Translations under genes and position numbers: made by a program
The notes under the pieces: model-generated
What the model was told of the DNA's origin: nothing
The model's input: only the letters and a program-made list of their open reading frames with translations
Databases searched by the model: none
Source: Chloroflexota bacterium
Lineage (GTDB): Bacteria; Chloroflexota; Dehalococcoidia; UBA2979
Length of the DNA: 49,701 nt
Assembly: GCA_003670735.1 (NCBI GenBank)
Contig: QWQU01000005.1
Location: forward strand, 1-49,701
Direction of reading: 5' to 3'
Shown: piece by piece, positions 16,942 through 21,345 of the stretch
How positions within the stretch are numbered: position 1 is the first letter of the stretch
Layout: every line of letters starts with the position of its first letter

Positions 16942-17211
16942 TCGCGGGGGTTGAGTCGGACTCGGACGGCTCGGCTGGCGCGGAGGCCGGGCGCGGTGCG
17001 GGCGTTGCCCGCGTGCCACGCAGGACAGTGTTGAGCCCACCCGCCCACCCTTGTGCGAGGGCTGCGCCTCGCACTCCTGCTCGGATGCTTTGCTCACGAA
17101 GCGAGGCGCTGGTTGAGCGGCGCAATGAGAGAGTTCTCGCGGATGAAGCGGCTGACCTACACGTCACGTCAGGTTGTCTGAACTTCGTTGGCGGTGCTAG
17201 CGTCGCCGCTC

Positions 17212-18297
17212 GTGAGCCTTACTCGTCTGCGCTTCCTTGTTCGCCCGTTGCTGGTGCTTGCCGCGTTCGTCGTGGTGGCGCTGGCGTTGCCGTCGTCCAC
17301 GGCGACCGCGCAGTCGAACGCTGCGACGCTGCGGGTGGGGATCAAGCCGCTCGATCCGTTCGTGATGCGCGGGGCCAACGACAAGTACTCGGGGTTCAGC
17401 ATTGAGCTCTGGGATGAGATTGCTCGTCGCAATGGGTGGACCACGCAGTACACGTGGTTCGACACGCTGCAGCCGCTGCTCGACAACGTGGGCGCTTCGA
17501 AGCTCGATATTGGGATCGCGGGGATCTCGATCACGCCGGAGCGCGAAGAGAAGCTCGACTTCAGCTACCCGATGTTCAACGCCGGGCTGCAAATCGTGGC
17601 GCCGGTGCGATCGGACTCGTCATTCCTCGGACGACTGGGGCGCCTGCTATCGGCCTCGATCGGGCTCTACCTCGGTGCATTGATCGCAATCCTGTTCATC
17701 GCGGGGAACGTGGTGTGGCTGTTCCATCGCGACCGGTCGTATTTGCCGGGGCTGGCCGATGGCATGTTCAAGGCGGCGGCGATCGGCCTCGTAGGCGAGG
17801 TGGGGGAGCCCGCGCATCCGGTTAGCCGTGCGGCTTCGGTGGTGTGGATCATCCTCGGCATTTGCTTTGTCTCGACGTTCACGGCGTCACTGGCCTCGGA
17901 CCTCACGGTGGAGCAGATCAGCGGCAACATTCGCGGCGTGAGCGACCTGACGGACAAGAAGGTCGTGACCGTGAGCGGCTCGACGGCCGCGCGGTACCTC
18001 ACCGATCGCAAGATCGAGTTCGACGGTGTCAGCACTGCCGACGAGGCGTTCAAGAAGCTCGAAGCTGGTGGGTACGACGCGATGGTGTTCGATGCGCCGG
18101 TGCTGCAGCACCACATCGAGGCGGCGGACAACGACCGGCTGCTGCTGGTGGGGAACGTGTTCCAGCGCGAGGACTACGGGATCGCGCTGCCGACTGGGAG
18201 CACGCATCGCAAGGCGATCAACACCACGCTGCTGGAGATGCAGGATGACGGCTCGTACGAGCGCATCCGCGAGCACTACTTCGGCAAGACGCACTAA
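17212..18297 (+). CDS. GluR0-like ligand-gated ion channel homologue (substrate-binding S1, TM1-pore-TM2, S2)
   Basis: Signal peptide; LRVGIKPLDPFVM...YSGFSIELWDEIARRNGW...DIGIAGISITPEREEKLDFSYPMF; TM LYLGALIAILFIAGNVVWLFHR; pore-region FKAAAIGLVGEVGEP; TM2 VVWIILGICFVSTFTASLASDLTVEQISG; second SBP lobe. Confidence 0.85.
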   Translation: MSLTRLRFLVRPLLVLAAFVVVALALPSSTATAQSNAATLRVGIKPLDPFVMRGANDKYSGFSIELWDEIARRNGWTTQYTWFDTLQPLLDNVGASKLDIGIAGISITPEREEKLDFSYPMFNAGLQIVAPVRSDSSFLGRLGRLLSASIGLYLGALIAILFIAGNVVWLFHRDRSYLPGLADGMFKAAAIGLVGEVGEPAHPVSRAASVVWIILGICFVSTFTASLASDLTVEQISGNIRGVSDLTDKKVVTVSGSTAARYLTDRKIEFDGVSTADEAFKKLEAGGYDAMVFDAPVLQHHIEAADNDRLLLVGNVFQREDYGIALPTGSTHRKAINTTLLEMQDDGSYERIREHYFGKTH

Positions 18298-18856: not shown

Positions 18857-20218
18857 TCAGTATGCGCGGCTGGTGCCAGGGGCAGCTGTGTCGAAGTCGG
18901 CCTTCACGGTCACGGTGACGGTGGCGGGTGCGCCCGCGGCGTTGGTGCCGGCGATGGTGACGGTGCCGCTGGATGCGGCGTTCGGGAGCAGCACGGGGTT
19001 CACGCTGATGGTGATCGTGGTGAGCGGCGAGCAGCCGGAGGCGCCGTCACAGGGGACGTCGGGGCCGAGCGAGACGCCAGCGGGCGGGTCTACGACGATC
19101 CAGTTGGCCGAAGGCGTGGCCGACCAGACGAGGATGCCGGTGCCGCCGTTGCGCACCCGCACGGTGGCTTTGGCGGCGTCTGCGCCGGCGTCGAGGCGGA
19201 GCTGCACGGGTGGGCCATCGACGGCCGGCACTGGGGAGCCCAACGCACGCGCTCGGAAGTCGGCGGGGATGACGGGGGCCGGCTCGGCGTGGCCGGGCGC
19301 GGGGGTGGGCATGTCCATGCCGGTGTACGGGAAGACGAAGTTCTGCACGGAGAGCGGCTGGAAGTACTGGGGCTGGGTGAGGTTCGGCAAGGAGGTGGCG
19401 ATCGGCGTCCACAACCTCGCGCCCTGGTAGGAGGGCGGGTTTTGCAGGCAGCCGTAGATCAGCTCCTGGTACGGGTAGCGCGTGCGGGACTGCGAGCCGT
19501 CGCAGCGCCATGCCTCGCGGGGGTTGGAGAAGACCGGGTCGAGCGGGTGGTTGGAGATGTTCGCGCCGGGGCCGGTGAAGCCGTTGTAGCGCCAGAGCGC
19601 GAAGTACCAGTTCTCGATGATGTTCGGGTTCGAGTTGGTATCGGTGCCCGCGATCGGGCTGACTTCGGGGGCTTCATTCCATTTGGCGGCCATCATCGCT
19701 GCGCCTCGAGCGATGTTGTAGACGTAGTGCGTCGCGATGTTGGACTGCGCGCTGGTGGGTTGGTTGTTCGCGCCGAGCGGGACGGTCATGCCGCTGGTGA
19801 TCTGCATGATGCCGTGGCCGCAGTCGAACGAGACGAGCGCTGCGCCGGTGGAGCGGAACGGGACAGCTCGGGCGGCCATGCTGAGGTTGGACTCGACCCA
19901 ACCGATGGAGCGCAGGAGCGAGCCGGGCATCTGGCGCAGACCGGGCTGGCGGGCGGCGCGTGTGCCGACCTCGACGGCGGGCATACCGAAGGTCGCATCG
20001 CCCGGGAAGATGTTGTCGGTAGCGGCAGCGTCCATCGCCTGGAAGTAGGCGGTGCGACCCGAGTCGGCCTCGTAGGCCTGCGGGGTGCGCAGGAATGCAC
20101 AGGCACTGACGCGCGTCGCGAGCGAGGGCGTGAGCGTGACGAGCGCGAGCAGCAGCGCGGCACCGAACGTGCCGAGCAGCGCTCGATGCATCGTGTGTCT
20201 CACTGCGTCACGCTTCAC
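18857..20218 (-). CDS. Exported lytic-transglycosylase-like protein with C-terminal BACON/Ig-like domain
   Basis: LLRSIGWVESNLSMAARAVP...DCGHGIMQITSGM (SLT-like E and GIMQIT); C-term LVWSATPSANWIVVDPPAGVSLG...TITISVNP; GTGA overlap with upstream gene. Confidence 0.7.
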   Translation of the reverse strand: MKRDAVRHTMHRALLGTFGAALLLALVTLTPSLATRVSACAFLRTPQAYEADSGRTAYFQAMDAAATDNIFPGDATFGMPAVEVGTRAARQPGLRQMPGSLLRSIGWVESNLSMAARAVPFRSTGAALVSFDCGHGIMQITSGMTVPLGANNQPTSAQSNIATHYVYNIARGAAMMAAKWNEAPEVSPIAGTDTNSNPNIIENWYFALWRYNGFTGPGANISNHPLDPVFSNPREAWRCDGSQSRTRYPYQELIYGCLQNPPSYQGARLWTPIATSLPNLTQPQYFQPLSVQNFVFPYTGMDMPTPAPGHAEPAPVIPADFRARALGSPVPAVDGPPVQLRLDAGADAAKATVRVRNGGTGILVWSATPSANWIVVDPPAGVSLGPDVPCDGASGCSPLTTITISVNPVLLPNAASSGTVTIAGTNAAGAPATVTVTVKADFDTAAPGTSRAY

Positions 20219-21345
20219 TTCTTCGAACCTGATGGCATCCATCCAAAGTAGATGATGTCGCCGCTGCCACTGACCACGCGTCGCTGACCAGCGTCGATGA
20301 CAACGGTTGTCTCACGACCGGGCGCTGCCGACGACATGCCATCAAACGAGCGAGCGGCGAGGGCGGTGCCATCGAGGCTCCAGCCGAGCGGCTGGTCGAA
20401 GCCGCGCGGCGGCGGTGTCAGCGTCGTGCTGGAGCTGTTCGCGAGCGGGAGCGTCTGCGCGCCGGCGTAGCCGCTGGTTGCGGGCTGCTGGCCGACGGTG
20501 ACAGCGTCATTGCCGGGACGCCATGCGTTGCCGTACTGCTCCGTGTCGCCGCCACCGAGGCGAGTGGGACTGGTGGGCCCGCCGGTGAGCTTCGCGACGT
20601 GCAGGCGGTAGGCGACACGCTCCGCGCTGATCACGGGCGCGAGGTAGGCGAGCGAGTCGCCGGAGGGCGAGATGCGCCAGTCGCGCGCGAGCTGGTCGGA
20701 GGCGTGGAAGAGCATGGTCGGGGGTGCGCCGCCGAGGACGCTGAAGAAGTCAGTACCGGCGCTGGAGAGCGTCGCGAAGACGAGCGCGCCCTGTGAGAAG
20801 CCGACGGGGAACATGCCGAACGCGGTCTCAGCCTCATAGAGCGGGCGGCGGGTACCAGCAGGAATGTCGATGCGGATCAGCGATTGCTTGCCGCCGGACG
20901 CGCTCGAGCGATACACGAGCTGGGTGCCCTTCGCGTCGAAGACGGGCGGCACGCGCAGGTCGGCGTCGCCGGCGAGGCGCGTCTTCGCGCCGGTCGCGAC
21001 ATCGAGCGTCCACAGCTCGGCGGGGGAGTCGGCCTGCGCGTTCACGGTCGTGGTGGGGAGCACGTTGTAGGCGACGAGCGTGCCGACCGGGGCGATCGCG
21101 GGGTTGATGCCCCACTCAGCGACGTGCTCGATGGTGGTGACGGTTGTGCGCTGCGCGGGGTCGGTCGCGGGTGCGATGTAGACGCGGTCGGAGTTAGTGC
21201 TGAACTCGGCGAAGATCAGTCGTGCTCCGAGGTCAGCCGTTGGCTTGCTGGTGCTGCGCATCCGCCAGACAAGCGCGCCTGCACCGAGCAGAGCGATCAG
21301 CGCGATCGTGCCAATGATGAATGGAGCGCGCCGGAACCAGGGCAT
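20215..21345 (-). CDS. Membrane-anchored TolB/WD40-like beta-propeller protein
   Basis: N-terminal TM; repeated blade-like units ...GAKTRLAGDADLRVPPVFDAKGTQLVYRS...RDWRISPSGDSLAYLAP...QPLGWSLDGTALAARS. Confidence 0.65.
   Translation of the reverse strand: MPWFRRAPFIIGTIALIALLGAGALVWRMRSTSKPTADLGARLIFAEFSTNSDRVYIAPATDPAQRTTVTTIEHVAEWGINPAIAPVGTLVAYNVLPTTTVNAQADSPAELWTLDVATGAKTRLAGDADLRVPPVFDAKGTQLVYRSSASGGKQSLIRIDIPAGTRRPLYEAETAFGMFPVGFSQGALVFATLSSAGTDFFSVLGGAPPTMLFHASDQLARDWRISPSGDSLAYLAPVISAERVAYRLHVAKLTGGPTSPTRLGGGDTEQYGNAWRPGNDAVTVGQQPATSGYAGAQTLPLANSSSTTLTPPPRGFDQPLGWSLDGTALAARSFDGMSSAAPGRETTVVIDAGQRRVVSGSGDIIYFGWMPSGSKK

Follow-up and report, generated by a model that had tools for sequence, protein, structure and literature searches.

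GluR0 of Synechocystis (slr1257), a Group 1 prokaryotic ionotropic glutamate receptor (iGluR), carries a TXVGYG filter and conducts K+ (PMC12332018, PMC13099474). Among the 22 prokaryotic receptors of Ger et al. 2010, 10 belong to Group 2, which lacks a recognised K+ filter, and a conserved ligand Arg in S1 together with an Asp in S2 is a feature of GluR0-type receptors (PMC2950845). The absence of TVGYGD is common and was already published in 2010. A chimera containing a viral K+ pore has been made in earlier work (PMC6385376). It is an open evolutionary question how glutamate receptors could have lost the K+ selectivity of their ancestor, and a further filter type on the same scaffold can bear on it. 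Here, we analyzed a receptor gene in a stretch of 49,701 nucleotides from a Chloroflexota bacterium of the class Dehalococcoidia (contig QWQU01000005.1, the whole stretch being called the window), for which the original prediction had proposed a GluR0-like channel.

The receptor studied here (the query) shares with GluR0 a signal peptide, the order S1-M1-P-M2-S2, the ligand Arg and Asp and the lack of an M4 helix, but its filter reads G-E-V-G-E and holds no K+ motif. Group 2 receptors, including the cyanobacterial Q-type, have the same architecture and, like the query, a non-K+ pore loop (PMC2950845). Nostoc and most of the relatives that we found carry TLATQADEMP-like loops, in which an ungapped reading puts Gln at the Q/R/N position, whereas the query and its clade have Gly at this position followed by Glu or Asp, and separate from the Q-type on the ligand domain. 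Eukaryotic iGluRs (AMPA, NMDA, delta and plant GLR) share the ligand-binding domain, the M1-P-M3 fold, a TASL/TANL-like gate and an acidic residue near the +4 site; the query differs from them in having neither an N-terminal domain nor M4, and in its filter residues. The receptor class itself is therefore known and is not a new system; the feature for which we found no earlier description is its additional type of filter, G-L-[VA]-G-[DE]-x-G, which is kept across two phyla.

Identification of the receptor gene

The reading frame at 17212-18297 on the forward strand is open over 361 codons (361 aa) and holds a signal peptide, S1, M1, the pore helix and loop, M2 and S2. An in-frame TTG at 17188 is an alternative start, and the exact start is thus unproven. 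The features are as follows, with their basis in brackets:

17212..18297, + strand, whole gene, prokaryotic ionotropic glutamate receptor, 361 aa (ORF, Pfam, 2pyy alignment, orthologues)
17212..17316, + strand, signal peptide, residues about 1-35 (hydropathy peak at residues 3-34; low model confidence there)
17329..17610, + strand, S1 half of the ligand-binding domain, residues 40-133 (Pfam, 2pyy alignment)
17542..17544, + strand, Arg111, counterpart of the GluR0 ligand alpha-carboxylate Arg (conservation, 2pyy SITAERE alignment, role from PMC2950845)
17653..17724, + strand, predicted M1 helix, residues 148-171 (AlphaFold model, hydropathy)
17740..17790, + strand, predicted re-entrant pore helix, residues 177-193 (AlphaFold model; matches the pore helix of the TVGYGD control)
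17791..17808, + strand, filter V194-G-E-V-G-E199 (alignments; Glu196 at 17797-17799)
17818..17922, + strand, predicted M2 helix, residues 203-237, with the FTASL gate motif (AlphaFold model, alignment)
17923..18288, + strand, S2 half of the ligand-binding domain, residues 238-359 (Pfam, 2pyy alignment)
18091..18093, + strand, Asp294, counterpart of the GluR0 ligand alpha-amino Asp (conservation, 2pyy VFDAPVL alignment)

The motif GLVGEVGEP forms residues 192-200 and lies at exactly 17785-17811, as had been reported. Hydropathy above 1.5 is limited to the N-terminal signal, M1 (about 142-173) and M2 (about 202-231). The second hydrophobic segment of the membrane part, after GLVGEVGEP, contains STFTASLASDLTVEQ and is followed by S2. 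The end of this segment had been likened to SFTASL/SYTANL; an FTASL gate motif is indeed present in M2, and the "TM2" of that description is the equivalent of eukaryotic M3.

Pfam returned SBP_bac_3 (7.7e-25, split across residues 40-359), Lig_chan (3.3e-9) and Lig_chan-Glu_bd (3.3e-8), each above its curated cut-off. The closest solved sequence, 2pyy (the GluR0 ligand core of Nostoc punctiforme), aligned in two blocks, and the amino-acid-binding halves flank the membrane part in both comparisons. Three other genomes of the query's family hold orthologues that are 60-67% identical, with the filters GLVGEVGEP, GLVGEVGDP and GLVGDLGEP. Over residues 40-359, dN was 0.24-0.27 against a dS of 0.72-0.95. 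Since the Pfam matches lie above the cut-offs, the orthologues keep the same filter type and dN is below dS, we confirmed that the gene is real and conserved and not a chance reading frame. The codon comparison indicates that purifying selection extends to the pore, where dN/dS was about 0.07-0.42, a range computed from few codons with dS near saturation.

Predicted structure and ligand-binding site

The AlphaFold monomer of the query, built with 53 relatives, reached a mean pLDDT of 84, with block means of 65-84 in the membrane part (moderate confidence). The model comprises a two-lobe ligand domain, a pre-M1 helix (138-145), M1 (148-171), the pore helix (177-193), a loop (194-202) and M2 (203-237). 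A control model of a TVGYGD relative from Thermaceae (L028) gave the same elements, with the pore helix at 158-175, the filter, and M2 at 186-221. The query model, the Lig_chan match and the control thus all point to a re-entrant pore helix and loop set between two membrane helices. Over its whole length, the query model best matched structures of GluD2, GluA and NMDA receptors; its ligand domain matched 2pyy. Together with Pfam and the 2pyy alignment, these results bear out the S1-TM1-pore loop-TM2-S2 architecture of the original prediction, including the re-entrant pore helix, whose absence from a predicted structure would have refuted it.

Both ligand residues of GluR0-type receptors are present in the query. 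Arg111 is invariant in the 53 sequences, and Asp294 is invariant within the acidic-filter clade and conserved in at least 90% of the 53. Because the query is close to the glutamate-bound 2pyy, the ligand is probably an alpha-amino acid, glutamate or a close relative.

Gene neighbourhood

In the window, the receptor is accompanied by genes for fructose-bisphosphate aldolase, signal peptidase, a phosphoribosyltransferase and DUF6391. Two long adjoining frames on the reverse strand, 18857-20242 and 20215-21345, have no Pfam match at 1e-5. The neighbours at five related loci (L006-L009 and L012) include SPFH/band 7, alpha/beta hydrolase, DUF2278, BrkB, P450 and an IS240-type transposase. The neighbours in the window and at these five loci do not match each other, and no conserved operon partner was found among them, so the receptor would act alone or with unlinked partners.

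The neighbourhood also bears on whether the protein could instead serve an amino-acid ABC importer as its substrate-binding protein, having acquired a simple membrane insertion. Its best NCBIfam names are GlnH-like binding proteins, and distant plasmid homologues are labelled "transporter substrate-binding domain-containing protein" in databases. However, the NCBIfam matches fall far under their cut-offs (115 vs 303 bits), the insert matches Lig_chan and is modelled as M1-P-M2 with a pore helix, and close homologues carry the same insert and also match Lig_chan. The neighbours examined in the window and in relatives included no identified ABC transporter gene, whether permease or ATPase; the permease-family matches of the query genome lie on other contigs, and one further, weaker SBP_bac_3 match lies elsewhere. 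We rejected this explanation, which the original prediction had named as one that would refute it, as very improbable.

Register of the filter against K+ channels

MAFFT aligned Gly195 with V76 of KcsA, the Q/R/N position, and Glu196 with G77. A Pseudonocardiales member of the clade, L008 (GLVGDYGVADPKRPLGR), matches six TVGYGD receptors along 62 residues with no gap and 16-23 identities; the mean score was +80 at this offset and negative at all others tried. This offset also came out best when the pore helix and filter of seven clade members were scored (+11.5, the next being -13.6). A CNG-like register, in which LVGE is read as TIGE with Glu at Y78, scored -17.4 against +11.5 as an ungapped shift by one and was rejected, although the helix ends would allow it. 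Against a TVGYGD profile, hhalign chose another, gapped register, in which Val197-Gly198 is paired with V-G and Val197 occupies V76; we did not prefer it, as it needs gaps inside the filter. Because hhalign prefers the gapped register, and the helix ends in the query and L028 models permit a one-residue shift, the register with Gly195 at V76 and Glu196 at G77 is likely but not certain.

The hhalign pairing would suit a channel that is still K+-selective with its filter in another register, for example EVG for TVG, and the characterised GluR0 is of the TVGYGD type (PMC12332018). The gap-free register, however, scores far better than one gapped inside the filter, and even the gapped register yields no GYG or GFG. 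We consider retained K+ selectivity improbable.

The original prediction had treated the Glu residues jointly as replacements of the Tyr/Asp signature, but the two are not equivalent. An acidic residue at the +4 site is common in iGluRs (PMC12226733), and Glu199 may correspond to it, a placement made uncertain by a two-residue deletion after the filter. Unlike Glu199, Glu196 together with Gly195 sets the query clade apart.

Filter types and the acidic-filter clade

The filter survey covered 79 loci from named genomes, together with further genomes, and the tree held 74 sequences. Several filter types occur on one receptor scaffold, and TVGYGD accounts for only 11 of the 74 sequences. Most of the non-K+ members sampled carry a Q-type filter, unlike that of the query. 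A simple motif rule, under which a few loops without Gln were taken in as well, counted Q-type loops such as TLATQADEMP in 29 sequences, whose sources include cyanobacteria, proteobacteria and Armatimonadota. An NGGFEER filter was found in 13 sequences, mostly from Rhodobacterales, and the G-L-[VA]-G-[DE]-x-G filter in 4 Dehalococcoidia and about 9 actinobacterial sequences (Pseudonocardiales, Frankia). Neither the query nor its close relatives contain GYG, which sets them outside Group 1, the GluR0-type K+ channels; the non-K+ pore loop agrees with Group 2 as defined in PMC2950845. The non-K+ filter that had been predicted is therefore upheld, while the lack of TVGYGD is as such not novel (PMC2950845). 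In a search of mostly open literature, we found no description of the G-L-[VA]-G-[DE]-x-G filter type or of such receptors in Frankia; a description elsewhere is possible.

In a tree built on the ligand-binding domain alone, with the pore removed, the 9 sequences with the query-type filter formed one clade (support 100/97), which, with no Gln in the pore loop, places the query apart from the Q-type. Residue 196 is acidic (Glu or Asp) in every member, and position 199 varies (E, D, S, V). All 9 members scanned matched Lig_chan, Lig_chan-Glu_bd and SBP_bac_3, as does the query.

Other loops were seen in the survey. A clade-specific VVNGGFEER loop stands in the place of the K+ filter in Rhodobacterales (L050, L052, L053, L055, L059-L061, L064, L066, L071 and L072). 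Three loci of the actinobacterial class (L108, L109 and L110) have the non-canonical filter TPFGAGNNTP on the same scaffold in open frames of 630-735 aa, possibly with extra N-terminal sequence. A GKNSAS-type loop, with no acidic or Gln filter residue, occurs in Mycolicibacterium and similar genomes (L105, L106, L024 and L032).

Proposed function

We propose that the receptor is a GluR0-type iGluR of a distinct acidic-filter clade and probably an amino-acid-gated cation channel with little or no K+ selectivity. An alpha-amino acid would bind between S1 and S2 outside the membrane, and closure of the two lobes would pull M2 and open the gate at the FTASL crossing; such opening of the gate by ligand-domain closure is established for iGluRs. 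In the presumed tetramer, four Glu196 carboxylates would form a ring in the filter that passes cations with little or no K+ selectivity and possibly binds divalents. A carboxylate in the place of G77 of KcsA is at odds with the backbone of a standard K+ filter, which makes a cation channel without K+ selectivity the likeliest reading.

The same loss of the K+ motif, with a carboxylate that in the chosen register breaks the K+ filter backbone, could also mean that the pore no longer conducts and that the receptor signals as a sensor by conformational change only. GluD receptors, which are known mainly for non-channel roles, are among the structural matches of the query model. Against this main alternative, which we regard as unlikely, members from two phyla retain the pore loop and gate, on which purifying selection acts, and the receptor has neither a cytoplasmic signalling domain nor a conserved neighbour to take up a signal. 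Judged on these sequence features, we favour conduction.

The putative carboxylate ring can be likened to those in the P-loop filters of NavAb/CavAb and Cav channels as a functional analogy only, since these channels are voltage-gated, have the opposite membrane orientation and are unrelated to the query beyond the P-loop superfamily. The engineered CavAb filter is LDDWSD (PMC4972137), and in the scheme of PMC8876033 (V76 = p50) Glu196 would be p51, adjoining the EEEE position. By this analogy, divalent binding in the filter is plausible. More tentatively, the acidic ring might let Ca2+ or Na+ into bacterial cells in response to amino acids, and might have evolved independently of the animal-like Q-type filter. 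If Na+ or Ca2+ were conducted, amino acids would depolarise the bacterial cell through this receptor. Since L008 keeps the K+-channel loop length exactly, the change can be addressed residue by residue in a protein of ~360 aa.

Distribution

The receptor is patchy in the query's family (4 of 44 genomes). In the actinobacterial class, 13 of 395 genomes had any receptor match at 1e-40, 8 of these being of the query's filter type. Transfer between the two phyla is plausible. A receptor from Anaerolineae (L013) with the filter TTGEYGDKTKP fell outside the acidic-filter clade, beside L015 and L016, and the acidic residue at this site may therefore have arisen more than once. In a Pseudonocardiales genome (G360, L077/L111), the second copy is reduced to an S1-like part within an open frame of 235 aa and looks like a decayed receptor gene. 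One Anaerolineae genome (G362) carries both the TTGEYGDKTKP receptor (L013/L092) and a TVGYGDRTP paralogue (L094), a natural pair for filter comparison.
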